In this document: in pieces, positions 36,699 to 57,671 of the stretch
Position numbering within the stretch: position 1 is the first letter of the stretch
How the letters are laid out: each line of letters begins with the position of its first letter
Source: Paludibacter sp.
GTDB lineage: Bacteria; Bacteroidota; Bacteroidia; Bacteroidales; Paludibacteraceae
Length of the DNA stretch: 64,000 nt
NCBI GenBank assembly: GCA_028710415.1
Contig: JAQTUE010000006.1
Coordinates: 62,001 to 126,000, forward strand
Direction of reading: 5' to 3'
Program-made: the position numbers and the translations under genes
Notes under the pieces: generated by a model
The model's input: only the letters and a program-made list of their open reading frames with translations
Databases searched by the model: none
What the model was told of the DNA's origin: nothing

Positions 36699-36720
36699 TA
36701 ATGGGAAGAGATTGCCCGTC

Positions 36721-36728: not shown

Positions 36729-36759
36729 CATTCGAATAGTACTTAAATCAAATAATATT

Positions 36760-37806
36760 ATGGATATTGCCAAACGATCAACAAATAATCCCCTGATGCG
36801 TCCCAGCGACCTGAAAGCAGGAATCAGTGGAATGGAGATTACCTGCCTGCTCAACCCGGGTGTTTTCAGGATGAATAATAAGACTTGGCTGCTGCTCCGC
36901 GTAGCTGAACGCCCCACGCAAATAGAAGATAAGATCAGCTTTCCCATTTATACTCCCCAGGGTACGATCGAAGTATTAAGTTTTGATAAGAACGACCCTC
37001 AACTGGATGCCACCGACCCGCGTGTCATCTTATACAAAGGAAAAAACTACCTGACCACCCTTTCCTATTTAAGACTGGTGTGCAGTGATGACGATATTCA
37101 CTTCCAGGAAGATCCAGCCTATCCACCTATTTTTGGACAAGGTGACCTCGAAGCTTTCGGCATTGAAGACTGCCGGGTAGCTACCATGGACGATGGTTAT
37201 TACCTCACCTTTACGGAAGTATCTTCGGTAGCTGTAGGCGTCGGACTGATCGCCACGAAAGACTTTACCCATTTCGACCGCAAAGGAATGATATTTCCCC
37301 CTCACAATAAAGACAGTGCCTTGTTCGAAGAAACTATCAATGGGATGTATTATGCCTTCCACCGGCCAAGCAGCCCTGAACTGGGCGGTAACTATATCTG
37401 GCTGGCCGAATCCCCTGACAGGGTGCATTGGGGAAACCATAAATGTGTTGCCATTACCCGCGAAGGCAGTTGGGATGAAGCACGGGTAGGAGCAGGGGGT
37501 GCTCCGATTAAAACATCAGAAGGCTGGCTCGAGATATACCATGGTGCCAATAAGGACCACCGTTATTGCCTGGGTGCTTTACTACTCGACCTGAATGATC
37601 CAACGAAAGTTCTGGCACGAAGCAAGGAACCGATCATGGAACCGATTGCCGAATACGAACAAACCGGATTCTTCGGGAATGTGGTCTTTACCAACGGACA
37701 TTATGTTCAGGGTGATACCATTAAGATTTTCTACGGTGCCAGCGACGAAGTGATCTGCAGTGCCGAATTCTCAATAACAGAAATATTAAACTCCTTAAAG
37801 AAGTAA
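36760..37806 (+). CDS. GH130 beta-mannoside phosphorylase-like enzyme
   Basis: The 348-residue protein without signal peptide is a five-blade propeller of family GH130. These enzymes phosphorolyse, or in some subfamilies hydrolyse, beta-mannosides such as mannosyl-glucose, mannobiose or mannosyl-GlcNAc. Visible blocks are NPGVFRMNNKTWLLLRVAERP, GIEDCRVATMDDGYYLTFTEVS, SALFEETINGMYYAFHRPS and IYHGANKDHRYCLGALLLDL (each in family positions). A longer frame from 36682 is rejected, because the -7 box lies inside it and the ATG at 36760 opens a typical N-terminus. It is followed after one base by an MFS gene, so import and cytosolic cleavage are coupled. The subfamily cannot be fixed by eye. Confidence 0.88.
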   Translation: MDIAKRSTNNPLMRPSDLKAGISGMEITCLLNPGVFRMNNKTWLLLRVAERPTQIEDKISFPIYTPQGTIEVLSFDKNDPQLDATDPRVILYKGKNYLTTLSYLRLVCSDDDIHFQEDPAYPPIFGQGDLEAFGIEDCRVATMDDGYYLTFTEVSSVAVGVGLIATKDFTHFDRKGMIFPPHNKDSALFEETINGMYYAFHRPSSPELGGNYIWLAESPDRVHWGNHKCVAITREGSWDEARVGAGGAPIKTSEGWLEIYHGANKDHRYCLGALLLDLNDPTKVLARSKEPIMEPIAEYEQTGFFGNVVFTNGHYVQGDTIKIFYGASDEVICSAEFSITEILNSLKK

Positions 37807-37807: not shown

Positions 37808-39064
37808 ATGGCCAATAAATTAGCCGGAGAATTCCTGTTCTTCAAGACCCAACCTAAAAATATACGGACACTGTTGATCACCAACATGCTGTATGGGATG
37901 ATTTTACCAATCATCGAGATATTTGTTGGTGCCTATATCATGCGCAATACGGGGAATTCAACTTATGTCGTTATCTTTCAGCTTTTCATGTATATCGGTG
38001 TGGTGAGTACCTCCATTTTGAATGGTGCCTTACTAAAAGTGTTCAAAGTAAACTGGTTGTATAGTTTTGGGATTGTGCTCTCCGCCATTGCCTTGATGGT
38101 GATGATGTTTGTCCATTCCATAGGTATCGTACAGTTAGGATTTGCAGGATTTGCCATTGGTGCATCTACCGGATTCTTCTGGACCAACCGCTATTTACTG
38201 GCACTAACAGCCACAAACGATAAGAACAGGAATTATTTTTTCGGCCTTGAATCATTCTTCTTCTCCTTGTGGAGTATCGTAATCCCTTTGATGGTGGGTG
38301 CTTTTTTAGGAACGATTGACGGGAAAGTCTTGTTTGGATATGCTATCAATTTCAATATGGGGTATCAGATTATCACAGTAATCGTATTTGTTATTGCTAT
38401 TTGTGCGTGCCTGGTATTGGCGAAAGGTGATTTTGTGAACCCGGTACAAAAGAAATTTATCTATTTCAAATACCATGTATTGTGGCAGAAGTTCCTGGCT
38501 TTGGCCAGCCTGAAAGGAATGGTTCAGGGCTTTTTGGTTACAGCGCCTGCTATCCTGGTCATGCGGCTGGTAGGAAATGAAGGTTCGTTGGGACTGATAC
38601 AGGGTATCGGGGGTGGTGCAACTGCCATTATCGTCTATGTACTTGGACGAATTGCCAAACCGGAGCACAGGATGAAGATCTTTGGATTTGGATTATTTGT
38701 ATTCTTCATTGGAACACTGGTAAATGGAATCATGTTTTCTGCCATAGGGGTTATCATATTCGTACTTTGCAAGGTGTTATTCCAACCCTTACATGACCTG
38801 GCTTATTTCCCAACCATGATGAAAACGATTGATACTGTTTCAGGCATAGAGAAACGGAATGAATATGCGTACATTTTAAGCCATGAAGTCGGCCTGTTTA
38901 TTGGAAGGGCTTCGGGTATGATATTGTATATTTCACTGGCTTACTTTGCTTCCGAGATCTTTGCATTGAAATATGCCCTGATTATTGTGGCAGGATTGCA
39001 GCTGATATCACTGCCGCTGGCAAAACATATTATTAAAGAAATAGACACGAAATATAAAGGTTAA
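37808..39064 (+). CDS. MFS sugar transporter
   Basis: The 418-residue protein has 12 predicted membrane segments in two halves separated by a loop (about residues 200-225, FVNPVQKKFIYFKYHVLWQK in part). GFAIGASTGFFWTNRYL lies in the first half, and a conserved acidic loop (FGLESFFFSLWSI) follows. GH130 with an adjacent MFS carrier is a common pairing in Bacteroidota, in which the carrier brings in the disaccharide that the phosphorylase splits. Substrate unknown; a mannose-containing disaccharide is inferred from the partner. Confidence 0.85.
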   Translation: MANKLAGEFLFFKTQPKNIRTLLITNMLYGMILPIIEIFVGAYIMRNTGNSTYVVIFQLFMYIGVVSTSILNGALLKVFKVNWLYSFGIVLSAIALMVMMFVHSIGIVQLGFAGFAIGASTGFFWTNRYLLALTATNDKNRNYFFGLESFFFSLWSIVIPLMVGAFLGTIDGKVLFGYAINFNMGYQIITVIVFVIAICACLVLAKGDFVNPVQKKFIYFKYHVLWQKFLALASLKGMVQGFLVTAPAILVMRLVGNEGSLGLIQGIGGGATAIIVYVLGRIAKPEHRMKIFGFGLFVFFIGTLVNGIMFSAIGVIIFVLCKVLFQPLHDLAYFPTMMKTIDTVSGIEKRNEYAYILSHEVGLFIGRASGMILYISLAYFASEIFALKYALIIVAGLQLISLPLAKHIIKEIDTKYKG

Positions 39065-39337: not shown

Positions 39338-41065
39338 ATGAGAACTTATAAATTAACTCTCTTCCTCATTCTCCTGGCAGGACATTTGTTTTCCTGCGTG
39401 GCGAGTGATAACTACGGAAAGCCGGTTGTACAGACGGCTATTCCGAGGATAGAAATGATGCCGAATGCACCAACACCCTATAAGATTCTCAACTGGAAAC
39501 AAAAGGCGAAAGATTATGATGCGTATGTGTTCGATTTCAACCCGGATATGCCGGCAGGTAAAATGATCTGGCTGGATAACAGCCAGCGCAACCTGCCACA
39601 GATAACTTTTGGACTCTATACTGCCATTCACGATGTACGTCAGGGATCTGCCCACAACAACGGGGAATTCCATGAAAGCCTGAATTCACTGTCAGCCATC
39701 CTGGGAGCCGGGTTGATAGGAATCGACAAGACCCATCAGAATGGTTACAATTATGTGAAGATGATCCAGAACTACTTCAATTCAGGTACCGGATGGAATA
39801 TCATGATGAACAATACCTGTCCGGAAGTAGCCCTCCAGGGAGGTGGGTATGGCCGTGACTGGTGGTATGATGTCTTGCCGAATGTCTTGTACTTTGCAGT
39901 ATGCGATGTGTTCCCAAATGTAGATAATGCCGACAATATCCAGCGCAGCATTGCCGAGAAGTTTTGCAAGGCAGACTCTGTACTCAATGGGAACTATGAT
40001 TATTCCTATTTTGATTATGGACGGATGCAGGGAATGGTGAATAAGATTCCTTTTCAGCAGGATGCTGCCGGAGGACATGGATACGTGCTCTATGATGCTT
40101 ATATGAAATATAAAAACCCAAGATACCTGGCACATGCAAAATCGGCTATTGCAGCATTGAACAATCAAAAGGAAAGCCGCTTTTATGAGATACTGCTACC
40201 CATGGGAATATATACAGCCGCACGGTTGAATGCCGAACAAGGTACCAATTATGATATCGAAAAGATGATGAACTGGGTTTTCGAAGGTTGTAAGAATCCG
40301 AAAGCACGTAACGGTTGGGGCGTGATTGTAGGCAAATGGGGCGAGTATGATGTCAGCGGATTGCAGGGCAGCATCATCGACGGGGGCGGATATGCTTTCC
40401 TGATGAACAGCATGAAAATGGCCTGGCCGCTTGTACCGATGGTAAAATACGATCCACGTTTTGCACGGGCTATAGGGAAATGGATGCTCAACAATGTCAA
40501 CTCAGCCCGGCTGTTTTTCCCAAATGAAATACCGGTCGGAAACCAATGGCTTCCTGAAATGAAAAACTATACGCATTCGGTAGTAGCCTACGAAGGTTTG
40601 CGGTATTCCGATTGTTACAATAAACCTGAGTTGAAAGATGTGCATCCTGTTGCATTGGGTGATGGACCAAACTGGAACTCAAAGAACCCGAAAGAAACTA
40701 TGTTCAGCCTGTACAGCACTTCGCCGGTTGGAATCATGGGAGCAATTGTGGATACTACTGATGTAAAGATGATCCTGAGACTTAATTGCAACAAGACTGA
40801 TTTTTATGCCAATACCACTTACCCAGCTTATTTGTATTACAACCCATACACAGTTTCAAAAAATGTGACCTATCATCCTTCAGGGAAAGTAGATGTATTT
40901 GATATTGTTTCAAAGAAATATGTAGCCAAAGCAATTAGTGGTGATACGCAAATTACGATACCGGCTGATCAGGCCAGTGTACTGGTTGAAATACCGGCCG
41001 GGGTTAAAATAGAAAACCATAAAAACAGGTTGACTGCAAATGGAATTCCTATAACCTTTAAATAG
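39338..41065 (+). CDS. Putative surface lipoprotein, unrecognised family (paralogue of the T9SS protein at 48.7 kb)
   Basis: The 575-residue protein has a lipoprotein-like signal (Cys20 in LFSC). The family is not recognised. Predicted mainly helical with repeated Trp/Tyr-rich hairpins, it looks like an all-alpha barrel (about residues 40-450) with a beta C-terminus. It shares long blocks with residues 20-560 of the protein at 48667: GIDKT, DWWYDVLPNV / DWWYEVMPNV, GTNYDI.KM.NW, YDVSGL, FARA.GKW.LN and NKTDF. Conserved Asp and Glu residues in the DVSGL, CxxYE and GD positions are candidates for catalysis. Its location between the MFS gene and SusC suggests a glycan-degrading enzyme or binding protein of this locus. 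Confidence 0.7.
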   Translation: MRTYKLTLFLILLAGHLFSCVASDNYGKPVVQTAIPRIEMMPNAPTPYKILNWKQKAKDYDAYVFDFNPDMPAGKMIWLDNSQRNLPQITFGLYTAIHDVRQGSAHNNGEFHESLNSLSAILGAGLIGIDKTHQNGYNYVKMIQNYFNSGTGWNIMMNNTCPEVALQGGGYGRDWWYDVLPNVLYFAVCDVFPNVDNADNIQRSIAEKFCKADSVLNGNYDYSYFDYGRMQGMVNKIPFQQDAAGGHGYVLYDAYMKYKNPRYLAHAKSAIAALNNQKESRFYEILLPMGIYTAARLNAEQGTNYDIEKMMNWVFEGCKNPKARNGWGVIVGKWGEYDVSGLQGSIIDGGGYAFLMNSMKMAWPLVPMVKYDPRFARAIGKWMLNNVNSARLFFPNEIPVGNQWLPEMKNYTHSVVAYEGLRYSDCYNKPELKDVHPVALGDGPNWNSKNPKETMFSLYSTSPVGIMGAIVDTTDVKMILRLNCNKTDFYANTTYPAYLYYNPYTVSKNVTYHPSGKVDVFDIVSKKYVAKAISGDTQITIPADQASVLVEIPAGVKIENHKNRLTANGIPITFK

Positions 41066-41094
41066 ATTCTCAATACAAACATATTTCTAACTAA

Positions 41095-41127
41095 ATTGTT
41101 TATAAATAACTGTTTATAGTATTATTG
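41095..41127 (+). promoter_or_regulatory. Weak promoter candidate for susC
   Basis: ATTG (41095-41098), 21 bases, TATTATTG (41120-41127): each box deviates by one base and the spacing is two longer than the consensus. Confidence 0.35.
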
Positions 41128-41182
41128 CCCTTCAATTCTTTTATAAAGAAAAACTTAATATTAATTGATTATACCTGTCATT

Positions 41183-44100
41183 ATGAAAAAAACGCTGTTA
41201 CTTATTTGTTTTGGGATTCTGAGTATAGTCCTGTATGCACAGGACCAGAACCAGGTAAATGGCATTGTAAAAGATGCTGCAACGAACGAACTCCTGATCG
41301 GGGTGAATGTCATTGTATCCGGAACCAATACCGGTACAGTTACGGGGATAAACGGTGATTTCAAGATTACAGTTCCAATGAATGCAACCTTAAAAGTATC
41401 GTATATCGGTTATAAGGCGCAAGAGATTAAAATGACAGGACAAAAGAACCTGACCATTCTGCTTGTGTCGGATAGTAAACTTATCGACGAAGTGGTCGTA
41501 GTGGGTTATTCCGTTCAAAAGAAACGGGATGTATTGGGTGCTATCGGCAAGGTCAGCGGTGAAGAACTATCAAAAATTCCTGTAGCATCAGCACAACAAG
41601 CCTTACAAGGCCGAGTTGCAGGTGTGGAAGTTGCTGCACAGACAGGTGCTCCGGGTGCACCGGTTTCAGTTCGGATACGCGGGGTCAACTCAATTGGATT
41701 GACAAATGACCCGTTGTATATTGTGGACGGTTTCCCGGTGGAAGGAGCCTTAAATAATATTTCACCGAATGAAATAGAAAGCATGACTATTTTGAAAGAT
41801 GCTTCCTCAGCTGCCATTTATGGTTCGAGAGCTACCAATGGGGTTATATTGATTACTACTAAAACAGGAAAAGCAGGAGCTGCTAAAATTACATTCAATA
41901 CCCAACTTGGATACCAGACACATGGTCACCTGACACCTATGGCCAATACCGACCAGTACATACAGATATACAACGAAGCAGCTGCAGCTGATAACCTGAC
42001 CTCTGTGGTTCAACGCCCGCTGATAGCCGGTAGTTTCATCAAGCCATTTCCAAATGTGAATCACATTGCGGAGATATTCCAGACAGCACCACTTCAAACC
42101 TATGAACTCTCGATTAGCGGAGGGGATGATAAAACACAATACCTGATTTCAGGTTCTTATTTCAATCAGGTAGGTATCCTTACCCATACAGGATACGATC
42201 GTTTTAATATGCGATCAAACATCAATTCGGAAGTGAAGAAATGGCTGCATGTTGGGTTGAATGTGAGTGGTGGCATTTCAAATAACCGCGTAGTATCGAG
42301 TTCCGGTGATGGAGCAGCCGGGGAAGGTGGAAGTGTGGTACGTTATGCACTCTACAGAAGCCCGGCCATACCGATATTTAATGCCTCAGGAGGTTATGTG
42401 GATTTACCTTCCGAGTACTACGGCAATTCGGCATACAATTCATTTTTTGGTGACGGGTATAGCCCCGAAGGTCTGGCAGCCAATACCGACAGGGTTAAAA
42501 AGATCAAATCCTTACTTGCTTCAGGCAATGTCCTGATTAATTTTCCCTCAAACATTTTCTGGAAGAGTACTTTCGGAGTTGATTACAGCAACCTGGAAAT
42601 AAGGGAGTTTAATAAAACATGGGGGACGTTGAATCGGATCAATGATCCAAATAGTTTAAATGTTTCAAGTTCAACCAACGTGAACTGGACCTTTAACAGC
42701 ACGTTAAACCACAGTATTAAAATTGGCGATAACAGTAACCTGACCAGTTTGTTAGGAGTTGAAGCCATAAAAAGAGCCGGTTACGGTCTTTCTGCCAGTG
42801 ACAGCCAGTTTACAAATACCGATCCAAACTTCCTGTATATCGGCAAAGGGGCTGTAGGTAAAAGTTCTGCCAGCCAGGGAGAAGATGGATCAAGCTTGCT
42901 TTCGTACTTTGCAAATGTAAATTATAATTACAATCAACAATATTACATCTCAGGAATTTTAAGGCGTGATGGTTCATCGCACTTTGTAGGTTCTAATCAA
43001 TGGGGAACCTTCTATTCAGTGTCGGCAGGATGGAACATGGATTCAGAGGAATTTATTAAAAATATTGACAATATCAGCAAATTGAAACTTCGTACCGGAT
43101 ATGGTTCTATCGGGAATCAGGAAGTACCACCTTATTCCAACCTGGACCGTTATTCCCCGAATTATTATTACACGTTTGGCGGAGCTGCTTACAATGGATA
43201 TGCCCAGACTTCACTGGGAAATACAGAATTGAAATGGGAAACCAGCAACCAGTTTAATATCGGTGTTGATCTGGAAATGTTTAAAGGATCGTTTGGAGCT
43301 ACCGTGGATTATTTTTACAAAATCACTAAGGATATGTTGGTGAAGGCACCACTTCCACCTTCGGTAGGGAATGCATCGCCACCTTATATAAACAGCAACG
43401 GAAATGTCATGAATACAGGTATTGACCTGGAATTGTTCTACCGTGAAAAATACAAAGACGGAGGATTTAATATTTCACTGAATGGAGGTTATATTAAAAA
43501 TAAAGTACTTAACATTGATGCACCCTATGTTGGCGGTATGGTTGATACAGGAGTATATGCCACAAAGACAGATGTGGGGCAGCCAATCGGGTCATTCTAT
43601 TTGTATCAAATGGCAGGTATCTTCCAGAACCAATCGGATGTGCTTACCTCAGCTTACCAGGGTAAAAATGTTCAACCCGGGGATGTGAAATACGTTGATC
43701 AAAACCATGATAATGTAATTGATGCCAAGGACCGTATTTTTATGGGAAGTGCCATACCAACCTTTACTGCCGGACTGAACCTTTCAGGGAATTATAAAGG
43801 CTTCGATGTGCTTGTGTTCTTACAGGGAGCTTACGGTCAGAAGATCTATTCCCAGGTGAATTATGATATCGAAGGTTACTACCGTGGGTTTAATGTCACC
43901 GAACGCTATTTTCAGCAACACTGGACAGGTGAAGGAACTTCCAATACTCAGCCACGCGCTTCCTGGTCAGGTAAGGCAAATAATGTAAAAGCATCCTCCC
44001 GCTTTTTGGAAGATGGATCGTATACCAGGCTGAAAAATGTACAGGTAGGTTATACCATCCCAAATACCAAAACGATAAAAATACAGAGTTTGAGGATTTA

Positions 44101-44266
44101 TCTGGCAGCTACCAATTTGTTGACATTGACCAAATACAGCGGGCTGGATCCTGAAATGACAGTGAGTACGAATTCAGCGGCTGAAGGCGATCGTGCTTTT
44201 GGAATTGACTGGGGAACCTACCCACCTCCCATCACCTATACTTTTGGAATGAATATAACCTTCTAA
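41183..44266 (+). CDS. susC: SusC/RagA-type TonB-linked outer-membrane glycan importer
   Basis: The 1027-residue protein has a signal peptide (to about residue 20, LYAQ), a carboxypeptidase-D-like repeat domain (about 25-100, VNGIVKDAATNELLIGVNV in parts), and the plug with the VDGFPVEGALNNISPNEIESM-type and GSRATNGVILITTKTGK blocks typical of SusC. A 22-strand barrel follows, ending in TFGMNITF. It imports oligosaccharides together with the SusD lid encoded two bases downstream. The start ATG 41183 is chosen over a TTG six codons earlier. Specificity cannot be told from sequence. Confidence 0.95.
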   Translation: MKKTLLLICFGILSIVLYAQDQNQVNGIVKDAATNELLIGVNVIVSGTNTGTVTGINGDFKITVPMNATLKVSYIGYKAQEIKMTGQKNLTILLVSDSKLIDEVVVVGYSVQKKRDVLGAIGKVSGEELSKIPVASAQQALQGRVAGVEVAAQTGAPGAPVSVRIRGVNSIGLTNDPLYIVDGFPVEGALNNISPNEIESMTILKDASSAAIYGSRATNGVILITTKTGKAGAAKITFNTQLGYQTHGHLTPMANTDQYIQIYNEAAAADNLTSVVQRPLIAGSFIKPFPNVNHIAEIFQTAPLQTYELSISGGDDKTQYLISGSYFNQVGILTHTGYDRFNMRSNINSEVKKWLHVGLNVSGGISNNRVVSSSGDGAAGEGGSVVRYALYRSPAIPIFNASGGYVDLPSEYYGNSAYNSFFGDGYSPEGLAANTDRVKKIKSLLASGNVLINFPSNIFWKSTFGVDYSNLEIREFNKTWGTLNRINDPNSLNVSSSTNVNWTFNSTLNHSIKIGDNSNLTSLLGVEAIKRAGYGLSASDSQFTNTDPNFLYIGKGAVGKSSASQGEDGSSLLSYFANVNYNYNQQYYISGILRRDGSSHFVGSNQWGTFYSVSAGWNMDSEEFIKNIDNISKLKLRTGYGSIGNQEVPPYSNLDRYSPNYYYTFGGAAYNGYAQTSLGNTELKWETSNQFNIGVDLEMFKGSFGATVDYFYKITKDMLVKAPLPPSVGNASPPYINSNGNVMNTGIDLELFYREKYKDGGFNISLNGGYIKNKVLNIDAPYVGGMVDTGVYATKTDVGQPIGSFYLYQMAGIFQNQSDVLTSAYQGKNVQPGDVKYVDQNHDNVIDAKDRIFMGSAIPTFTAGLNLSGNYKGFDVLVFLQGAYGQKIYSQVNYDIEGYYRGFNVTERYFQQHWTGEGTSNTQPRASWSGKANNVKASSRFLEDGSYTRLKNVQVGYTIPNTKTIKIQSLRIYLAATNLLTLTKYSGLDPEMTVSTNSAAEGDRAFGIDWGTYPPPITYTFGMNITF

Positions 44267-44268
44267 CA

Positions 44269-45714
44269 ATGAAAACGATCATGAAAAAAAGATTTTATAT
44301 ACCAGCAATAGCAGTCATAGGGTTATTCGCCTCATGTACCAACTTCCTGTCAGAAGAATTGAAAGGTGATTATACATCCTCCAACTACTATACAACTCCC
44401 GAATCAGCTACAATGGCAGTTACGGGAATATACAATTCCTTGTATGGCAATACCCTGTGGATATTCGGGGATGTGGCTTCGGACGATGCTGTAAAGGGTG
44501 GAAATGCAGGCGATCAGGCCGATATCAATGCAATCAATGATTTCTCGGCTGCGGCCGATAATGGCGTTTTGAATGTATTCTGGCAATCGACATATGAAAC
44601 TGTTGCCCGTGCCAATAATGCCATAAAGTATATTGCCCCAATGAATATTGATGCAACTATGAAGAGCCGGTTAATTGGGGAAGCTAAGTATTTACGCGCT
44701 TATTCGTATTTCAACCTAATCAATATCTTTGGAAAAGTGCCTTTAAAGCTGGAACCACAGCTTACTGCTGCTACGATCAACGTACCTTTAAGTGAAACAA
44801 GTGCTATTTATGCACAAATTGAAAAAGACCTTACCGAAGCTGCGGCTGTATTGCCGGCGAGCTATCCTGCATCCGATATTGGCAGGATAACCCAGGGAGC
44901 TGCCTTTGGATTGTTGGCTAAAGCAGACCTGTATCAACAGAAATATACCGAATGTCTGACTAATATACAGGCATTGGAAAACCTTCACCAATATAAACTG
45001 CTTAGCAATTATGCCAACCTATTCAAACCGGGATCTGAAGACAGTACGGAAGTCATTTTTGGATTCCGCTATGCAAATACGGCTGCATCATCGTTGGGGA
45101 ATAATTTAAATGTATGGTTTTCGCCGCCAACAGAAGGGGGATATTATTTCAATGCCCCTACCCAAAATTACGTGGATATATTTGTTCAGAAGACCACTGA
45201 TGGCAAAGATGACCCACGGTTGGATGCTTCTATCGGCCGGGATGGAAAACCCTGGTTCAACAATACGACATTCTCATCATCTTGGTCGGAAGCAACGGGT
45301 TATCTGGTCAAGAAATACGATGAAGATGCCAAACCGGGTGTTACCAAAAGCCAATCGACTGTCCCTTACCAGTCCATGCGTTATGCCGACATTCTACTCA
45401 TGAAAGCCGAAGCGTTGAATGAACTGGGAGGAGCGGGTGCAGTCGGGAATGCTGCCGTTGAAGTTAACAAGGTGCGTCAACGGGTTAATCTGGCTCCCGA
45501 TCTCACCACAACAACACAGTCAGATATGCGTATTGTGATTCAAAATGAAAGACGTAAAGAACTTGGATTTGAATTCCACCGTTTTTTTGACTTGATGCGC
45601 TGGGGACAGGCAACTGCAGAAGCAGCATTGGGGACAGATTTCAAGTGGACCGCACCCCGTTTTTACTTTCCAATTCCTCAATCGGAAAAGGATACAAACA
45701 AAGCATTAAAGTGA
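44269..45714 (+). CDS. susD: SusD/RagB-type surface glycan-binding lipoprotein
   Basis: The 481-residue lipoprotein (Cys23 in FASC) has the helical TPR fold of SusD. Typical blocks are YNSLYGNTLWIFGDVASD, AKYLRAYSYFNLINIFGKVPL (in parts), the YQSMRYADILLMKAEALNE block and ERRKELGFEFHRFFDLMRWG near the end. It forms the lid over SusC and captures the glycan at the cell surface. It is translationally coupled to susC. An alternative start at 44281 gives the same mature protein. Confidence 0.95.
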   Translation: MKTIMKKRFYIPAIAVIGLFASCTNFLSEELKGDYTSSNYYTTPESATMAVTGIYNSLYGNTLWIFGDVASDDAVKGGNAGDQADINAINDFSAAADNGVLNVFWQSTYETVARANNAIKYIAPMNIDATMKSRLIGEAKYLRAYSYFNLINIFGKVPLKLEPQLTAATINVPLSETSAIYAQIEKDLTEAAAVLPASYPASDIGRITQGAAFGLLAKADLYQQKYTECLTNIQALENLHQYKLLSNYANLFKPGSEDSTEVIFGFRYANTAASSLGNNLNVWFSPPTEGGYYFNAPTQNYVDIFVQKTTDGKDDPRLDASIGRDGKPWFNNTTFSSSWSEATGYLVKKYDEDAKPGVTKSQSTVPYQSMRYADILLMKAEALNELGGAGAVGNAAVEVNKVRQRVNLAPDLTTTTQSDMRIVIQNERRKELGFEFHRFFDLMRWGQATAEAALGTDFKWTAPRFYFPIPQSEKDTNKALK

Positions 45715-45763
45715 AAATTACAACTAACTATCAATTTAATAATCAACAATTAATCAAAAAATC

Positions 45764-46843
45764 ATGAAAACAAATCTTTTTAAGAATGCATTTATTGCAT
45801 GTGTGTCAATCGCTCTTTTTGCAGTCGTTTTTAACGGATGTAAATCAACCGACACCCCCGTAGTGACAGCTAACCAGACTGCTTTAACAGCTTTGGTTGA
45901 CTCTTGCACTACCCTTTTAGCCAGTTCAACTGTAACAACCGATTATCCGGCTGCTGCTATTACGGCATTTCAATCTGCTTTAACTACTACCAAAACAGCC
46001 GCTACAAATTCAACAATTACCCAGGCTGCTGTTGATAATTTAGTGGTGAATTTAAGGGCTGCTAAAACTACCTTTATGGCTGCTGCTTATGGTGCTATTC
46101 CGGTTGCAAATCTGTTAATGGGATTGACTTTTGACGAAACAGTAACCAGTAACCAAATGACCACGGAAGGCAAACCATTGACTGCTGTATTAACAGCCGG
46201 TCCATCTCAAGTATTTGGAACTGCAACTAATCTGCCAAGTTTTGTAACAGGGAAAAAGGGAAAAGCAATTTATTTCAGCAATGGATCACACCTTGAAATC
46301 AGCAATTACACAGCCAGTGATTTTGAAGGCAAGACTCTTTCTATTGCAGCTTGGGTTAAACCTGATTCAACAAGAGCAGGGAACTATATTATGTCCCTTA
46401 ATTATTGGAATACCTGGAAATTCCAACTTCAGGAACAAAACAAACCATTCTTTACAGTAACTACTTCAGTTGGTGGAACAGATGCCGATAATCAGGCCGA
46501 TAATTCAGCACCAAATAAAGCGTGGACTCATTTAGTGGTATCAATGAATTTGACAACTGGCAATTTGACTTTCTATGTGAATGGTGCAAGTACAATGGTT
46601 TGGAATAGTACAACGAAACCGAATCTTTCTGGTACAGTTAAAACTTATGCAACTGTTTTACCATTGATGATCGGAGCTTGTACTACTTATCCCGAAGTAA
46701 TCGCTAAATGGGATTGGGTAACACCTCCAATTAAACCTCAGGGTTGGGATGGTTTTATAGGTGCCATTGATGAACTGAAAGTTTACAACATCGCGTTGAC
46801 TGATGGTCAGGTATCCAAGCTTTACAGGGACGAAAATAAATAA
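45764..46843 (+). CDS. Surface glycan-binding lipoprotein with LamG domain (SusE/F position)
   Basis: The 359-residue protein has a lipoprotein-like signal (Cys26 in FNGC). A helical module rich in Ala and Thr (about residues 35-110, repeated TAFQSALTTTKTAATNST-like text) resembles a FIVAR-type spacer. A LamG/concanavalin jelly roll follows (about 125-355) with LSIAAWVKPDS, HLVVSMN, LTFYVNG and a closing GAIDELKVYNIALTDGQV. The position directly after SusD and the single carbohydrate-binding-like domain fit a surface glycan-binding protein. No catalytic residues are expected. Confidence 0.82.
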   Translation: MKTNLFKNAFIACVSIALFAVVFNGCKSTDTPVVTANQTALTALVDSCTTLLASSTVTTDYPAAAITAFQSALTTTKTAATNSTITQAAVDNLVVNLRAAKTTFMAAAYGAIPVANLLMGLTFDETVTSNQMTTEGKPLTAVLTAGPSQVFGTATNLPSFVTGKKGKAIYFSNGSHLEISNYTASDFEGKTLSIAAWVKPDSTRAGNYIMSLNYWNTWKFQLQEQNKPFFTVTTSVGGTDADNQADNSAPNKAWTHLVVSMNLTTGNLTFYVNGASTMVWNSTTKPNLSGTVKTYATVLPLMIGACTTYPEVIAKWDWVTPPIKPQGWDGFIGAIDELKVYNIALTDGQVSKLYRDENK

Positions 46844-46866
46844 ACTATAGTTTTTCGTTCATCTTT

Positions 46867-46914
46867 AAAAGGGACTTGTCTTATTCATAAGTCAGGTCCC
46901 TTTACTTTTCTAAC
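46867..46914 (+). terminator. Hairpin terminator after the LamG lipoprotein
   Basis: AAAGGGACTTG pairs with CAGGTCCCTTT (one G-U pair) around a loop containing CTTATTCATAAG; a T-rich stretch follows. It separates the binding genes from the enzyme genes. Confidence 0.7.
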
Positions 46915-46979
46915 AATAGCTTTTTCTCTGATCAACTTTATTCACTGCCATTTTAGCAACACATTATCACATCAACCTT

Positions 46980-48599
46980 ATGTTCCAACAGACCCTGAAA
47001 TACCTGATCCTGTTCTTCGTCCTGAATGTTTCAGCCCAACAGAAGCCTGAACAGTCCTGGTGGAAAGAAATCACCTTTTACCAGATCTATATGCCCTCGT
47101 TTCAGGATAGTGATGGCAATGGCATGAGCGACTTTAAAGGCATGACTTCAAGGCTGGGGTATCTTCAGTCATTAGGTGTCAAAGGAATCTGGCTTACCCC
47201 TTTTCTCACTTCCCCAAAGGTAGATAACGGTTATGATGTGTCGGACTATTATCAAATAGATCCGGTGTATGGAAACACAAATGACTTCACCAACTTCTTA
47301 AACGAAGCCCATAAAAAGGGTATAAAAGTTATCATGGATATGGTGCTCAACCATACTTCCACGGATTGCAAGTGGTTTCAGGAATCCCGTAAATCAAAGG
47401 ATAATCCCTACCGCGATTATTATATCTGGAAAGATACTCCCAATAACTGGGAATCCTTCTTTGGAGGTGGTGCCTGGAAATTGGACACCCTGACCAACCA
47501 GTATTACCTGCATAAGTTTGATGTCCGTATGGCAGACCTGAACTGGTCGAACCCGAAAGTAGTGCAGGAAGTTCAAAATGTACTCCGTTATTGGCTTGCC
47601 CTGGGGATTGATGGCTTCAGGTTTGATGTGATCAACTTCCTGAACACTGATGATGTAGTAACCGATAACCCCATCAAAGACGGAAAGCAACAGCATATCT
47701 ATAACATCAATCAACCCGGTGTTAAAGCTGCCATTGCTGTCATCAAGTCTACGGTCAATGAATACAAGGACCGCTTTACGGTAGGTGAAGTGGGCAACGA
47801 TCAGATAGAAGTTCTAAAGCAATACCAGTCCCCGGAATACCTGGATGTGGTGTTTAATTTTAATTTCGGAAGTATCCCTGCCTTCTCAGTGGAACGTCTC
47901 TTTAAGGAACTTCAAAGCATGGAAAACAACATGCCCGGCTACCCGACGTTATTCTTTGGAAGTCATGATAATCCCCGTTTGCTGGACCGTCTTGCAGGTG
48001 GGAATATTGACCGGGCAAAGGCACTCGCGGTTCTTATGCTTACTGCCAAAGGCGTTCCTTTCATTTATTATGGGGAGGAAATCGGTATGAAGAATATTAC
48101 AGCCAATACCTATGAAGAGATTGCAGACATACAGGGCAAGACATTCTATAAACTGGCTATCGATGCCGGTAAGTCAGCCGATGATGCCCTGCTGGAAGGG
48201 AATAACCACAACCGGGACAAGTCCCGCAGTCCGATGCAATGGGACGACAGCCCAAATGCAGGGTTTACATCCGGGCAGCCCTGGATAAAACTGAATGAGA
48301 ATTACAGGGAGGTCAATGTTAGCACAGAATTGAACCAGACTAATTCCATGTTGAGTACCTATAAGGCATTACTGGCTCTTCGGAATTCAGAGAAAACACT
48401 GCAATACGGCAGTTATGAGAAGCTGGACAGAAACAAAGACCTGATCAGTTTCACCAGATCCTATCAAGGGGTTAAAGTAACAGTGATTCTAAACTTTGGC
48501 AATGAACAAAACGTTCAACTTCCTGAGGGAGCTAAAATACTAATGGGTAGTACTGCATTAAAAACAAATGGTTATTTGATTTATCGTACAACGAATTAA
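46980..48599 (+). CDS. GH13 alpha-glucosidase/oligo-glucosidase, secreted
   Basis: The 539-residue protein has a signal peptide ending near VSAQQ and the GH13 (beta/alpha)8 barrel. All three catalytic residues are present: Asp216 in GFRFDVI, Glu270 in TVGEVGN and Asp330 in FGSHDNPR, with VMDMVLNHTS as region I. The layout and the lack of an extended starch-binding domain fit the oligo-1,6-glucosidase/alpha-glucosidase/trehalulose-type subfamilies, so it acts on alpha-linked gluco-oligosaccharides, including possibly trehalose-type bonds. Probably periplasmic. It is followed by a stable hairpin before the T9SS gene. Confidence 0.9.
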   Translation: MFQQTLKYLILFFVLNVSAQQKPEQSWWKEITFYQIYMPSFQDSDGNGMSDFKGMTSRLGYLQSLGVKGIWLTPFLTSPKVDNGYDVSDYYQIDPVYGNTNDFTNFLNEAHKKGIKVIMDMVLNHTSTDCKWFQESRKSKDNPYRDYYIWKDTPNNWESFFGGGAWKLDTLTNQYYLHKFDVRMADLNWSNPKVVQEVQNVLRYWLALGIDGFRFDVINFLNTDDVVTDNPIKDGKQQHIYNINQPGVKAAIAVIKSTVNEYKDRFTVGEVGNDQIEVLKQYQSPEYLDVVFNFNFGSIPAFSVERLFKELQSMENNMPGYPTLFFGSHDNPRLLDRLAGGNIDRAKALAVLMLTAKGVPFIYYGEEIGMKNITANTYEEIADIQGKTFYKLAIDAGKSADDALLEGNNHNRDKSRSPMQWDDSPNAGFTSGQPWIKLNENYREVNVSTELNQTNSMLSTYKALLALRNSEKTLQYGSYEKLDRNKDLISFTRSYQGVKVTVILNFGNEQNVQLPEGAKILMGSTALKTNGYLIYRTTN

Positions 48600-48619
48600 A
48601 TTGATAACTTTTCCAATTA

Positions 48620-48652
48620 AACTTTTTCAAAGTTCCAAACTTTGGAAAAGTT
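48620..48652 (+). other. Intercistronic hairpin between GH13 and the T9SS gene
   Basis: AACTTTTTCAAAGTT pairs with AAACTTTGGAAAAGTT with one G-U pair and a very short loop. There is no T-run after it, and the next ATG is at 48667. It may stabilise the upstream mRNA end or attenuate read-through. Confidence 0.5.
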
Positions 48653-48666
48653 AATCAAGTAAAACA

Positions 48667-51600
48667 ATGAAACGAATACTTTTCTCAACTCTTTTTATTG
48701 GATCATTTTTACTGGCATACTCCCAGCAACTATCCATTCCCCGCATTGACCTGATGCCGGATATGCCGGTTCCCTTTGTGATGCGTGACTGGAAACAGGT
48801 GGCGGTGAATTACGATAACTTTGTGTTTGATACTACCAAAACAGGAACCTATTTGCCATTATCAGCCATCAGTACTTCCAACGGGATTAATTACCCGGCC
48901 CTTAAAACCATCCGTCTGGATAGTTATGTGGGTCAGACTGATCATGGCAGGGTGGCGGAAGCCATCAACATATTACCTGCCGTGGTGGGGGCTTCTTTGG
49001 TGGGCATTGATAAGACAGTGCAATTCAATACCAATTGGGTGGCTAAAATCAAGGACTTTTTCAATAAACAAAACGGTCAGAATGTCTACCTGAACAACTA
49101 TTCCACTTCCACTGGCAATGACTGGTGGTACGAAGTGATGCCCAATGTTTTTTTCTACCAGCTGTATGCTTTGTACCCAACTGCTGATGCTGATTTTGCA
49201 ACGCAGTTTACTACTATTGCCGACAGGGAACTGGGCGTGTTGACTAAACTGGGTGGCACCGTCCAACCCTGGAGCCTGCCTTCCATGAATTACAGGGCAT
49301 TTAACCTGATTACAGGGCTTCCCAATACAACCAGTGTCCCGGAACCGGAAGCATCAGGCTCCATATCGTGGCTGATGTATCAGGCCTATGTCCAGACCGG
49401 TAATCCAAAGTACCTGCAGGGTGCAGAGCTGGCACTGGATTTTCTGAACAGCTTTGCCACAAATCCCTCGTATGAAATTCAGCTTCCTTATGGAATTGCT
49501 ACTGCTGCCCGCATGAATGCTGTGGAAGGAACCAATTACGATATCAGGAAGATGCTAAACTGGAGCTTTTCGTCCGGCCTGAATACCTTGCGTGGATGGG
49601 GTACCATTGTGGGTAACTGGAATGGGTACGATGTATCCGGGTTGATTGGTGAAGCCAATGATGGCAGCAATGATTATGCCTTTAGCATGAACGGTTTCCA
49701 GCATGCTGCAGCCCTGGCCCCGGTAGCCAAATATGATAAACGGTTTGCTCGTGCATTGGGAAAATGGATTCTGAACCTGGCCAATGCCAGCCGGTTGTAT
49801 TACCGGAATGCGTTGCCCCAGGCCAACCAGGAACCTGCCAGTTATGCCTGGTCTGTACTTAATGATACGGCATCCTGCATTCCCTATGAGTCGATCAAAC
49901 AGAACTGGAATGGAACCAGGCCCTTTGCCATGGGGGATGCCATCAGTGGAGGCGGGGCGGCAACAGATTTATCGTTGTACAGTGGTTCGAGTGTGGGGTA
50001 CCTGGCTTCCATTATTTCAAAAACCAATGTAGAGGGAATCCTGCAGGTCGACCTGAATAAGACTGATTTCCGGGGTGATAAAACATTTCCCTCATATCTG
50101 TATTATAACCCATCTGTTACGACGAGGCCGGTTAACCTGCCATTACCTGCCGGCTCCTTTGATGTGTATGATGCTATCACCCAATCTGTGTTGGGGACAA
50201 ATGTAAACGGGATATTCACGTTCAACATTCCTTCCGATAGTGTCTGTCAGTTAATTATTTACCCAACCGGAAATGTACCAATATTAAAGGGACGGCTCAA
50301 ATTGGTGAACGGCCATGTTATCGACTATCATACCGGGTATAATTACACGAACCCATTGCGGATAAAGGCATTCTCAGCATCTGATACGATCGTTCAGAAA
50401 TTGAATACCCTGCACCTGTACTGCCTGCCTGAAAATACGGTAACAGCAACTCCATCCTTTCATTGGTTTCAAAACAATGTTCTGGTGGGCACTACCACGA
50501 CAGGCACGTATACCTGGACAGCCGCGGGTACTCCGGGAATAATTCAGTTGACCTGCAAGGTGTCCGAAAATAACGATACCATCACTTCACCACAAATACA
50601 GGTAAAAGTTGTGGATATATTGGTTCCGCCACCTGTTATCTCGAATATTACTTTCTCTGATGACATGCCTTTTGATATCGGTACTGCTATTACTGCTTCT
50701 GCAATCCTGAACACCAACCAGGTTACTTATTCGTGGAGTGCTTCAAACGGTGTGTTGACAAATGACCTGACTCTTTCACCCAACTGGATACTCCCCAATG
50801 CGTCCGGAATTTATGCGCTTACCCTCACTGTAACGAATGCCTCAGGTACTTCCACATTTACCAAACAGATATTAGTAAAGGATTTGCTTGTAAGTGCCGA
50901 ACCTACACCCTTGGTTTATTATCCCTTTAACGGCGATACTAAAAATGCTGCCCAAAATGCATTGAATGCTATTTCAGTCGGTGTAATCTCATCAACCGGT
51001 GCCAATGGGGTTGTGAACGGTGCCTATCAATTTCCATCCAGTGATTCGTATATCTATACCCCGAACGATCCTGCCCTGAATTTCCGGGATAAAATAACGG
51101 TTTCCTGTTGGGTGAAACCTGATGCTTTGCCCAACAGCGAACAGTTTATTCTTTCACACGGAAGCTGGGAAGAACGTTATAAACTTTCCATCATTCCGGG
51201 AAAGAAAGTACGTTGGACCGTTAAAACCAATTCTTCAACTGTGGATGTGGATGCCGACACTTTGTTGTCAATTGGGAACTATGACCACTACACAGCCATG
51301 TATACAGGCTATTCCATGGAACTCTACCGGAACGGGGTTCTTTCTGCCTTTAAACCACAAACAGGACTCATTCAAACCACTCAGAAAAGCCTGACCATTG
51401 CCCGTAAAGATGAAGGTACTTCCCTGTATAATTTTACAGGATCGGTGGATGAAGTACGAATCTATCAGGAGGAACTTCCTCAGGCAATCATTAAACTCTT
51501 GCCCTACTCCTTTACGCTGAAAGCCATTAAGCAGGATACTGCCATTACCTCCCTGAAAGTATTCCCGAACCCCTTTAGCAATGAATTTCAGGTCACACTC

Positions 51601-51777
51601 CCTACGGGTGAAAATATAGCCCGAAAAGAAATCTATGATCTGCTTGGCAAGACTCTGTATAGTTTTTCCGATACTTCCCCCACTGTCCAATTGAATATTC
51701 CGAATGGTTTTTATATCCTTCGAATCACTGCTTCCAGCGGGAAATACTATATCTCTAAAATAATCAAGAAGTACTGA
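48667..51777 (+). CDS. T9SS-exported multidomain protein with an N-terminal domain of unrecognised family
   Basis: The 1036-residue protein has a signal peptide (to about residue 19). An N-terminal domain of about 540 residues is clearly paralogous to the lipoprotein at 39.3 kb (shared blocks GIDKT, DWWYEVMPNV, GTNYDI.KM.NW, YDVSGL, NKTDF). Then come two Ig/PKD-like domains (about 565-750), a LamG-like domain (about 755-950, with ITVSCWVKPD and FTGSVDEVRIY) and a type IX sorting domain (about 960-1036, with VFPNPFSNEF and GFYILRITASSGKYYISKIIKK). It is exported to the surface by T9SS. The extra modules suggest an endo-acting enzyme on a polymer, with the lipoprotein paralogue acting on smaller pieces; this is inference. 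Confidence 0.75.
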   Translation: MKRILFSTLFIGSFLLAYSQQLSIPRIDLMPDMPVPFVMRDWKQVAVNYDNFVFDTTKTGTYLPLSAISTSNGINYPALKTIRLDSYVGQTDHGRVAEAINILPAVVGASLVGIDKTVQFNTNWVAKIKDFFNKQNGQNVYLNNYSTSTGNDWWYEVMPNVFFYQLYALYPTADADFATQFTTIADRELGVLTKLGGTVQPWSLPSMNYRAFNLITGLPNTTSVPEPEASGSISWLMYQAYVQTGNPKYLQGAELALDFLNSFATNPSYEIQLPYGIATAARMNAVEGTNYDIRKMLNWSFSSGLNTLRGWGTIVGNWNGYDVSGLIGEANDGSNDYAFSMNGFQHAAALAPVAKYDKRFARALGKWILNLANASRLYYRNALPQANQEPASYAWSVLNDTASCIPYESIKQNWNGTRPFAMGDAISGGGAATDLSLYSGSSVGYLASIISKTNVEGILQVDLNKTDFRGDKTFPSYLYYNPSVTTRPVNLPLPAGSFDVYDAITQSVLGTNVNGIFTFNIPSDSVCQLIIYPTGNVPILKGRLKLVNGHVIDYHTGYNYTNPLRIKAFSASDTIVQKLNTLHLYCLPENTVTATPSFHWFQNNVLVGTTTTGTYTWTAAGTPGIIQLTCKVSENNDTITSPQIQVKVVDILVPPPVISNITFSDDMPFDIGTAITASAILNTNQVTYSWSASNGVLTNDLTLSPNWILPNASGIYALTLTVTNASGTSTFTKQILVKDLLVSAEPTPLVYYPFNGDTKNAAQNALNAISVGVISSTGANGVVNGAYQFPSSDSYIYTPNDPALNFRDKITVSCWVKPDALPNSEQFILSHGSWEERYKLSIIPGKKVRWTVKTNSSTVDVDADTLLSIGNYDHYTAMYTGYSMELYRNGVLSAFKPQTGLIQTTQKSLTIARKDEGTSLYNFTGSVDEVRIYQEELPQAIIKLLPYSFTLKAIKQDTAITSLKVFPNPFSNEFQVTLPTGENIARKEIYDLLGKTLYSFSDTSPTVQLNIPNGFYILRITASSGKYYISKIIKKY

Positions 51778-51875: not shown

Positions 51876-54308
51876 ATGAAAACCAAACCCAACTATTTAA
51901 TCCTCCTTTTGCTCTGTGTCATTTCCTCCCTTTCAGCCAATGAGCTGAACCTGAAACTCAAGGGAGATTCCGCAAAAGGGTTTTATGTCGACCTGTATTA
52001 TGGTTCCATCCCGGTATCCACCCAGATGAAAACGGGTGAGATAAATGTAACGGTTGAAAATGAAGATCATTCCATCAGGGAAACAGTCACTGACTGGAAG
52101 AGTACTTCAGCCATTCAGAGCGCATCCGGAATCATTCTCTCGGGAGTCGTTAAGCTTCCGAACCTGGAAACTGATTTATTCATTACCGTGACTTATGAAC
52201 TCGTGAACAAACAGGTAGTTGAGAAACGTATTGACCTGCGCCAAACGAATCTGTCGCTGTTATATTATTCCGTAAATTCATCGTTGGATTCGAGGGAAAT
52301 CCCTTCCCGCTTTTGGAGTTTTGACAATGCCAATAACAAGGGCGGCATTGCCCATGAATCTTATCCGGCTGCCGGATACATGATTGGGGATACACTGGCT
52401 GTCGGTCTGCTTACAGATGCGGGCAACCGTAATCTCTGGACGCGCAATATCCGTCGCCGTCCTTCAACAGGCGGGGTGGGATTCCGTGCCATTCAGGAGA
52501 TTTGTGATGCCAACCTGTACCGCATTGCTTCGCAGGAGGACCGTAACAATGTGGATAATTATGTCCGGCTCACCTTTGGCGAATTATCCGACTTTAATCA
52601 CCCGGATAAAAGGGTCTCGTTTAAAACACCTTTACTCTCAGAATGGAAATCGTACAACGGGGCGGAAGTAACCCCTGATAAAGGAATTTATACACTGAAA
52701 GGTGATAAAGCGACTTCCGACATGGCAGGTTTTCGCTTGCCCTATCAGCTGCCCGATGGGTATTATACCATCCGTTTCAAACACCGTTCTGCCTTTCCTG
52801 TTTCCTTAAGGCTCTGGAAAAATGACGGCATTTCCGCCAACGATGTGCAGGGATTCCATTACCAGACCAATATCCCGTCAACTCCGGTGCTTTGGACCGA
52901 TCAGGAGGAAACTGTATTCCTGGCCAATACCGAAGGGGGAACAACGAACCTGTTGATAGCCGCCTCAAACCTTAAGACAGGGAAACCTTATGCGTTGGAA
53001 ATTAAGGATCTGGAAGTTATCCGGTCTGTAGGGCACGAACACCCTTACCATCAGTTATTTTCTGGTGTACAGGCCACAAAACGGACATTTATTTTTGTTG
53101 CCCCGGCAAAACCAACCCTTCATGATGTCCGTCTTGCTTCCCAGGTTTACCTGGCCGATGGGTTGCGCTTCAAAGGTACTGTGGAAGAGAAATGCCTGTA
53201 CGCGTGTTACCAGATGTTGATGTGGATCACCAGTGCCGGAAACTTCAAGCCGCTCAGCGTGCCCAGTATCAATTATGCCCCCGATATGTACAACCGCGAC
53301 TCCTTCTGGAGCATGATGGGCACCTACGATAAGGAAAGCAGCGAAAGCATTTTCAACGAATGGGCAGCTACCCAAAATGAGGCTGGGACGATCGGCACCA
53401 TTATTACTCCCTCTATGGGCAGCAAGGAGTTGAAAGGAAATGATGCCACACTTGAATTCCTTTGGTTTGCACTGGTCAACAAACGGCTTTATGGAACACC
53501 GCCACCCATGGATAAAATTACCAAAGCCTACCGGTATATCCTGAATGAAATTGACTCCGATGGGGATGGTATCAGCAGTGCCAGGTTTGTATTGGGCCAA
53601 AATGACTGCGTGGAATACCCAGACAGGACTTCCAACCTGGCAGTCAACCAGGGAATGCTTGCCGTAACCCTGCGGGTTGCTAAGGAACTGGGCTTGCCGG
53701 TTACCAATGAATACATCGAAAAAGCAAATGCCGGATACCGTGCCTTCTATGATAAAAAACGAGGTTACCTGATTGATAACAGGGCCTATCCGTACGTCAT
53801 TACCTTCAATGCTTTGTTACCCGAATTTGTCTCACTATGGCTCTTCAACGAACCGATCCTGACTTCGGAGATGGTGACTAACACCCTGGATAAAGTCCCT
53901 ACCCATCAGGGCTATTCCCCGTTAATCTTTCATGTGAAAAACCTGTATTTTACAAATAAAGACAAACCCTTCTCGCCCAACCTGTTTTGGGATAACGGCA
54001 TCTATTACAATGCAGGCAGCTGGATGCGCGAAGAAATATGCGGGTACATTGCCGGTATGAAGCATGACTGGAAACCTGCCGAAAAACGTATCAAAGACCG
54101 CCTTGCAACTGAAATTACCCTGAATCCCGATGAACCCTTCAGCCATGAGTTTTTGCCCTACGACCTGACCGTGCCCAACTGCTGGTGGCCGAGTACCCGG
54201 GTCTTTTCCTGGAATGTCTTTGTGCTGAAAGCCCTCGAAGTCGCCGGCATGCGTACCCCGGATCAGGACCCGGACTACCTGAAATATTGTATCCAGGCAA
54301 AGAAATAA
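51876..54308 (+). CDS. Secreted putative six-hairpin glycosidase, unrecognised family
   Basis: The 810-residue protein has a signal peptide (to about residue 21). The N-terminal half (about 25-400) is beta-rich and includes a carbohydrate-binding-like segment (YYTIRFKHRSAFPVSLRLWKN in part). The C-terminal half (about 415-790) looks like an (alpha/alpha)6 barrel: KCLYACYQMLMW, YAPDMYNRDSFWSMMGTYD, NEAGTIGTI, LEFLWFALVNK, DNGIYYNAGSWMREEICGY and NCWWPSTRVFSWN. The RDSFW and EWA-T pattern recalls GH63/GH125-like glycosidases, but I cannot assign it to a known family. Acidic residues in MYNRDSF and EEICGY are candidates for catalysis. Flanked by GH13 and GH31, it probably acts on alpha-linked glucose or mannose. 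Confidence 0.7.
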   Translation: MKTKPNYLILLLLCVISSLSANELNLKLKGDSAKGFYVDLYYGSIPVSTQMKTGEINVTVENEDHSIRETVTDWKSTSAIQSASGIILSGVVKLPNLETDLFITVTYELVNKQVVEKRIDLRQTNLSLLYYSVNSSLDSREIPSRFWSFDNANNKGGIAHESYPAAGYMIGDTLAVGLLTDAGNRNLWTRNIRRRPSTGGVGFRAIQEICDANLYRIASQEDRNNVDNYVRLTFGELSDFNHPDKRVSFKTPLLSEWKSYNGAEVTPDKGIYTLKGDKATSDMAGFRLPYQLPDGYYTIRFKHRSAFPVSLRLWKNDGISANDVQGFHYQTNIPSTPVLWTDQEETVFLANTEGGTTNLLIAASNLKTGKPYALEIKDLEVIRSVGHEHPYHQLFSGVQATKRTFIFVAPAKPTLHDVRLASQVYLADGLRFKGTVEEKCLYACYQMLMWITSAGNFKPLSVPSINYAPDMYNRDSFWSMMGTYDKESSESIFNEWAATQNEAGTIGTIITPSMGSKELKGNDATLEFLWFALVNKRLYGTPPPMDKITKAYRYILNEIDSDGDGISSARFVLGQNDCVEYPDRTSNLAVNQGMLAVTLRVAKELGLPVTNEYIEKANAGYRAFYDKKRGYLIDNRAYPYVITFNALLPEFVSLWLFNEPILTSEMVTNTLDKVPTHQGYSPLIFHVKNLYFTNKDKPFSPNLFWDNGIYYNAGSWMREEICGYIAGMKHDWKPAEKRIKDRLATEITLNPDEPFSHEFLPYDLTVPNCWWPSTRVFSWNVFVLKALEVAGMRTPDQDPDYLKYCIQAKK

Positions 54309-57670: not shown

Positions 57671-57671
57671 T

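Follow-up and report, generated by a model that had tools for sequence, protein, structure and literature searches.

Which enzyme opens the glycan at a locus equipped to import one, and what glycan is it? The question is raised by a 64,000-nucleotide stretch of Paludibacter sp. DNA (hereafter the window: positions 62,001 to 126,000 of contig JAQTUE010000006.1, assembly GCA_028710415.1), in which a SusC/SusD pair, enzymes and a regulator of the hybrid two-component system (HTCS) type together form a polysaccharide utilization locus (PUL) that also encodes two related proteins, A and B (Table 1). On balance, we hypothesize that this PUL serves a beta-1,2-mannoside-rich glycan, that A and B depolymerize it outside the cytoplasm, and that they found a helical-barrel glycoside hydrolase (GH) family. 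The parts of this proposal differ in strength: that A and B are depolymerases is highly probable, that their substrate contains beta-1,2-mannosides is likely, and that the bond they cut is itself the beta-1,2-mannosidic one, attacked in endo fashion, is an inference we somewhat favour. Computed here are the family with its fold class, the order of the genes and the link to GH130; the activities of Uhgb_MS and other GH130 enzymes are those of published work.

By alignment, A and the N-terminal half of B are paralogues: BLASTP pairs residues 32-555 of A with 21-535 of B at 199 of 544 identical positions (37%, 322 bits, E 9e-103), a similarity far past chance that bears out the roughly 540 shared residues seen in a preliminary description of the locus, with both open reading frames (ORFs) where it had placed them. 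They are the only family members in the window's genome. The two forms with different export signals described there were also recovered. A starts with a hydrophobic stretch that, by eye, ends in a lipobox-like LFSC motif (Cys20); B has, again by eye, a signal peptide, and its sorting domain scores 40.5 bits against TIGR04183 (cut-off 23). With three matches over cut-off to the PorP family of the type IX secretion system (T9SS) in the same genome, this type A sorting domain makes B a predicted T9SS cargo. The preliminary description could place the two proteins in no known family and proposed a profile search and a structure prediction as checks. Searched against Pfam and NCBIfam, A matched no family at E<=1, and against PDB sequences it gave two chance-level rows only (E 1.3 and 2.3); the family half of B gave one PDB row that is not significant (E 0.52), and a 19-member family profile had no PDB match at E<=10. 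A Pfam scan of 19 members, one by one, returned four weak families, the best of them C5-epim_C (0.0041, in 5 of the 19), which we regard as fold-class noise; a C5-epimerase identity is rejected. By the measure of Pfam, NCBIfam and PDB, the family appears to be undescribed.

The structure prediction also agrees with the helical barrel that had been suggested. An AlphaFold2 model of A, made from 79 sequences (predicted local distance difference test, pLDDT, 95; predicted template modelling score, pTM, 0.94), has about 12 longer barrel helices and then about 10 strands, a predicted helical barrel plus C-terminal beta domain. Foldseek found 30 PDB matches below 0.001, all remote: the top ones are the GH127/GH146 beta-L-arabinofuranosidases HypBA1 and Bll3HypBA1 (2.9e-8, 12% identity, template modelling (TM) score 0.37), followed lower down by BT_1003, GH116, a phage SSV19 tail chain (5.7e-6) and partial amylase pieces, while a viral structure library gave one unnamed match below 0.001 (E 9e-6), which is uninformative. 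At about 10-12% identity, TM scores of 0.3-0.4 and no significant Pfam match for the shared region, the likeness to GH127/GH146, as modelled, is one of fold class only. GH127 and GH146 enzymes have conserved catalytic and zinc-binding cysteines, a site without counterpart in A and B because no Cys column of the 79-row alignment is conserved beyond 63 rows; with no sequence-profile match and no invariant Cys column in those rows, membership in GH127/GH146 is rejected. The invariant residues are acidic: E113, E284, E419, D442 and D488 of A are kept in 79/79 rows, D174 in 78 and D130 in 77. In the model, helices begin at or just after E113, D174, E284 and D442, and active-site acids of such barrels tend to sit at such positions. 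These acids bear on the idea that A and B have no catalytic role and serve as glycan-binding or scaffold proteins, which the LamG domain on B and the presence of both genes in a SusCD operon might suggest and which we hold to be very improbable: PUL binding proteins are usually beta-rich or SusD-like, whereas A is a predicted helical barrel with its five invariant acids, and 21 related operons reduced to core genes (below) would then have no depolymerase.

For the substrate, the key neighbour is the GH130 gene at 36682. Its membership in GH130 follows from the Pfam match and from 265 of 346 residues (77%) identical to the characterised Uhgb_MS (PDB 9eqq/9erg/9erh). A truncated PDB title in the same search names a 1,2-beta ligand, and the next PDB relatives are Lin0857 and 1,2-beta-oligomannan and beta-1,2-mannobiose phosphorylases, TM1225 and beta-1,4 enzymes ranking behind. 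Three partner GH130s from other loci (two from L163, which has three, and one from L169) are each closest to beta-1,2-active enzymes. PMC8950772 lists Uhgb_MS as a 'mixed-linkage mannoside synthase': from mannose it forms beta-1,2-mannobiose, and it lengthens alpha-1,2-mannobiose as well. As the constant partner of the family, GH130 points to beta-1,2-mannosides rather than to alpha-glucans, alpha-mannans or trehalose-containing glycans. The latter had been proposed as screening substrates in the preliminary description, which overlooked the GH130 gene and reasoned from nearby GH13, GH31, GH37 and GH38 genes to a missing endo-acting enzyme; the role of missing depolymerase is supported, and the substrate reasoning is not. 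No GH31, GH37 or GH38 gene was found past B in nine relatives, eight of them read for at least 10 kb and the ninth for 3.7 kb (the stretch of a tenth, L185, ended short of B), and with the eight longer ones a trehalose, alpha-glucan or alpha-mannan core substrate is unlikely. The same genes are absent from the 80 loci described next, which says little because those stretches extend no more than 10 kb beyond A and would in most cases not show them.

How constant is the partnership? A relative of the family is encoded in 318 stretches of a one-genome-per-species collection, of which the best 80 were fetched. Presence in these loci was decided by tblastn, GH130 being counted at >=60% identity, as ORF lists missed A in L079, L083 and L104 and long antisense frames hid GH130 or the major facilitator superfamily (MFS) gene in L072 and L076. 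A is present in 80/80 loci and GH130, MFS and A occur together in 78; the two loci without GH130 (L091 and L107) start at MFS or at A, where the stretch ends. The C-terminal end of the HTCS is matched in 60 of the 80 and the LamG-domain protein in 48. Because these loci hold the nearest relatives of A, the link was also examined, with less bias, in 393 genomes of the order: 41 have the family (two being partial or weak matches, G627 and G543), 37 have this GH130 at >=60% identity, and 33 have the two together (Fisher p 5e-36, not corrected for shared descent). A family member lies on the same contig at 32 of 38 GH130 places, mostly about 1.4 kb off on the same strand, with three at about 3.9 kb. 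More widely, about 20 kb around the family member, where the contig allowed, was read in 17 further genomes of the phylum with a GH130 profile built here: GH130 lies near distant family members in 15, where the 2-7 Pfam GH130 matches per genome would lead one to expect 0.25. Three seeds of that profile (L169, L172, L173) come from the 15, and the Pfam profile finds GH130 there too. The family accompanies GH130 even where, by reading of the sequences, ATP-binding cassette (ABC) permeases replace MFS (L163, L164). Because the family stands beside GH130 in most genomes checked, A and B are probably the beta-1,2-mannan depolymerases.

Two side observations concern the surroundings of B-type genes. 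In L163, L164 and L166/L193, reading of the sequences places B-type genes near SusC/SusD or LamG together with binding-protein-like and ABC-permease-like genes and 1-3 divergent GH130s, apparently combining SusCD with ABC import in an unusual way. In L169, a 1359-residue ORF (12563-16642) that weakly resembles B (27% over 302 residues) stands between B and GH130; the family profile does not match it, which places it outside the family domain.

Among the 80 loci, 34 bounded same-strand runs contain GH130, SusC and SusD, and 21 of the 34 hold core genes only (GH130, MFS, family members, SusC, SusD, LamG, HTCS); the run lists rest on ORF calling and are approximate, L085, L087 and L103 being probably bounded by antisense frames. 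A Pfam scan of 19 of the 21 bounding ORFs gave 11 with a match, none a glycoside hydrolase, including DNA methylase, MutS2, ThiF, DUF418, an AraC regulator, and sulfatase-type and GDSL-type proteins; a PUL could continue past such a bounding gene. The clearest run is that of Bacteroides xylanisolvens XB1A (L055), with GH130, MFS, A, SusC, SusD and HTCS between flavoprotein and DNA methylase genes. These runs also bear on the alternative that A and B depolymerize a mixed-linkage mannan, such as a bacterial O-antigen or a fungal mannan with beta-1,2-mannose beside alpha-mannose, cutting an alpha-mannosidic or other neighbouring bond and freeing beta-Man-(1,2)-Man for GH130. The use of alpha-1,2-mannobiose by Uhgb_MS, the mixed-linkage name of that enzyme, a GH38 gene in the window, and beta-1,2-mannose in O-antigens and trypanosomatids (PMC4264767) and in Candida mannan caps (PMC4599007) would fit such a substrate, yet GH38 was not found past B in the eight relatives and no alpha-mannosidase is present in the 21 core-only runs, and we consider it unlikely.

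Several observations weigh against reading A and B as endo-acting beta-1,2-mannan depolymerases. Guilt by association identifies the PUL, not the bond that is cut; the activity of A and B is predicted from context for the family as a whole, and the surface exposure of A is putative. The natural glycan may be mixed alpha/beta, because Uhgb_MS also extends alpha-1,2-mannobiose. The 80 loci, as the best of 318, are near relatives of A. Additional genes occur in 13 of the 34 bounded runs, and 8 of the 19 scanned bounding ORFs have no Pfam match, some of them perhaps spurious antisense frames. The extra genes suggest other residues in some targets: ten further ORFs chosen for a Pfam scan included a GH65 (L068), a GH2 (L078) and a second GH130 (L076), besides an SASA/GDSL esterase (L064), a Gfo/Idh oxidoreductase (L108), a flavin adenine dinucleotide (FAD) oxidoreductase (L065), MutS2 and MFS (L045), an aldehyde dehydrogenase (L047) and one without match (L096), and GH13 is found in 9 of the 80 loci and in L173, so that an alpha-glucoside is possible in some targets. 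The unmatched ORF of L096 (17469-20939) lies in the operon, encodes 1156 residues and is not matched by the family profile either.

The partnership itself has exceptions, which belong with these points. The family lacks this GH130 in 8 of 41 order genomes: G306 (L163/L199) has three other GH130s beside B, plus ABC sugar transport genes, G348 (L164) has one other GH130 in the stretch read, and G633 (L166/L193) has three about 10 kb away on the opposite strand; no GH130 was found in G499, G583 and G546, where only short contigs or stretches are available, and the remaining two are the partial or weak matches G627 and G543. In 2 of the 17 phylum genomes no GH130 was found in the stretch read: G1043 has none on its 11.6-kb contig, while the 19 kb read in G834 hold none, the GH130 pair of that genome lying on a different contig together with a family fragment. 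Conversely, GH130 occurs without the family in 4 of 37 order genomes. No SusC/SusD was found in the stretch read of three GH130-only genomes (G553, G461, G356), and in G318 (L159, 6835-10443) the order is GH130, MFS, a second GH130, SusC, SusD, with no A. The second GH130 has as its closest PDB entries 4onz, 3r67 and 5a7v, which group with the beta-1,2-mannosidase BT3780, and its position indicates that A has been replaced there, which itself speaks for the beta-1,2-mannoside reading. This beta-1,2-mannosidase-type enzyme at A's place could mean that A and B are themselves exo-acting beta-1,2-mannosidases or mannobiohydrolases, and GH127 and GH116, among the nearest folds, are exo families. 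We find this improbable: if mannose alone were set free, GH130 and MFS would have no oligosaccharide to handle, and paralogues with different export signals would better fit an outer and an inner step.

Endo-acting depolymerases of a beta-1,2-mannoside-rich glycan would give the locus a simple order of events. From context, we infer hydrolysis by A and B, their endo attack on the beta-1,2-mannosidic bond, and which of them acts first. B (T9SS-exported, with its LamG domain) and/or the lipoprotein A would cut the glycan, most likely internally, at beta-1,2-mannosidic bonds; SusC/SusD and the LamG lipoprotein would bind and import the fragments; A would then shorten them to short oligosaccharides, which the MFS transporter would move across the inner membrane, where phosphorolysis by GH130 would yield mannose 1-phosphate.

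The family also occurs elsewhere in the Bacteroidota. In a sample of 300 genomes and 33 genera of the taxonomic family, searched with a single-sequence query, it matched in 15 genomes, all of one genus and the query genome counted; besides the order sample given above, it occurs in 19 of 395 genomes sampled across the phylum. Named carriers, gut species among them, include Bacteroides xylanisolvens XB1A, Dysgonomonas hofstadii, Proteiniphilum sp. X52, Phocaeicola faecicola, Prevotella illustrans, Labilibaculum euxinus and Ancylomarina sp. A 79-row tree (48 A, 16 B and 15 second copies, midpoint-rooted for drawing) unites the 16 B rows in a single clade with support 100/100, apart from all 48 A rows; 14 of the 15 second copies fall on the A side and the remaining one, the long-branched second copy of L057, adjoins the B clade. 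Because the B rows form their own clade, the A/B duplication is old and long predates the split of these taxa.

Table 1. Features of the PUL around proteins A and B (positions in the window).
Feature	Position	Strand	Support
HTCS hybrid two-component regulator, divergent	32265..36338	-	Pfam Reg_prop, Y_Y_Y, HisKA, HATPase_c, Response_reg, HTH_18
GH130, predicted cytoplasmic beta-1,2-mannoside phosphorylase	36682..37806	+	PF04041 2.8e-47
MFS transporter, presumed importer of released oligosaccharide	37808..39064	+	PF07690 8.2e-09
Protein A, lipoprotein, new family, predicted depolymerase, 575 aa	39338..41065	+	ORF, A-B BLASTP, model
SusC-like TonB-dependent transporter	41165..44266	+	PF07715, PF00593, PF13715
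SusD-like glycan-binding lipoprotein	44269..45714	+	PF07980 1.2e-39
LamG-domain protein, probable surface glycan-binding lipoprotein	45764..46843	+	PF13385 3.7e-17
GH13 alpha-glucosidase-like enzyme, accessory	46980..48599	+	PF00128 1.5e-133
Protein B, T9SS-type family member, predicted secreted/surface-bound depolymerase, 1036 aa	48667..51777	+	
B, family domain, aa 21-545	48727..50301	+	alignment to A
B, LamG (concanavalin A-like) domain, aa 791-942	51037..51492	+	PF13385 4e-23
B, T9SS type A sorting domain, aa 965-1035	51559..51771	+	TIGR04183 2e-10
Protein C, 810 aa, second unrecognised protein	51876..54308	+	without significant family match

The likely true start of the GH130 gene is the ATG at 36760. 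Protein C adjoins B in 4 of the 9 relatives read past B (L179, L180, L181, L183) and is found in 5 of the 80 loci, the majority of which end before its position. It matched no Pfam family at E<=1, and its best NCBIfam and PDB-sequence values are 0.041 and 0.23. A model from six sequences (mean pLDDT 66.5) has remote fold matches of the GH116, GH94, GH65 and GH63 kind; C is possibly a beta-sandwich plus helical-barrel glycosidase, only the fold class being suggested because the model is of low confidence and the matches remote. After C come the GH31, GH37 and GH38 genes (55013-62873), and the 704-bp gap between C and GH31, together with the failure to find them past B in eight relatives, suggests that this block is a local addition or a separate operon. 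A separate cluster at 5441-18950 (GH3, GH31, GH39, GH43, GH95, GH3) may serve a glycan of the xylan or xyloglucan type.

Known enzymes for beta-1,2-mannosides include phosphorylases and exo-mannosidases; no enzyme that cuts the polymer was found in the literature searched, that is, outside subscription papers, preprints and CAZy: no endo-beta-1,2-mannanase appears in the accessible parts of papers naming GH130 and '2-mannan', and by their titles and the starts of their abstracts none of the papers on '2-mannanase' appears to concern beta-1,2-mannan. A broader claim, which we hold tentatively, would make A and B the founders of a new carbohydrate-active enzyme family and the first dedicated endo-beta-1,2-mannanases, and the HTCS-GH130-MFS-A-SusCD core a widespread beta-1,2-mannan system of the Bacteroidota whose main natural source is unrecognised. 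If so, many unassigned PULs would gain a testable substrate, and the beta-1,2-mannans of Candida, trypanosomatids and O-antigens an enzyme with which to dissect them. It would also suggest that beta-1,2-mannan is commoner in nature than thought, its main source in gut, rumen, digester and sediment having so far gone unrecognised. Two papers offer natural candidates: beta-1,2-mannose caps Candida mannan (PMC4599007), and trypanosomatids contain it, as do several Gram-negative bacteria in their O-antigens (PMC4264767), so that Candida mannan, trypanosomatid beta-1,2-mannans, O-antigens and some mushroom mannans could each be considered (PMC4599007, PMC4264767).

How, then, does the proposed system compare with known ones? 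A, as modelled, shares the GH127/GH146 fold class, as said above. GH144 and GH162 endo-beta-1,2-glucanases are helical barrels that open a beta-1,2-linked polymer; they would be work-alikes of A and B, with glucan rather than mannan as substrate, and neither is named among the matches listed by Foldseek for the A model. The yeast alpha-mannan PULs with GH130 hydrolases (BT3780, BACOVA_03624) are Bacteroides loci that also handle beta-1,2-mannosides; the accessible part of PMC4599007 mentions no enzyme of the A kind there and describes the beta-1,2-mannose as a cap taken off by a secreted GH130. The GH130 enzymes as a group (Uhgb_MS, Lin0857, Teth514_1788/1789, BT3780) are five-bladed propellers (PMC8950772), unrelated to A and B, and work on chain ends and short oligosaccharides, unlike the role proposed here for A and B; as recurrent neighbours of the family, they presumably use the products that A and B release.

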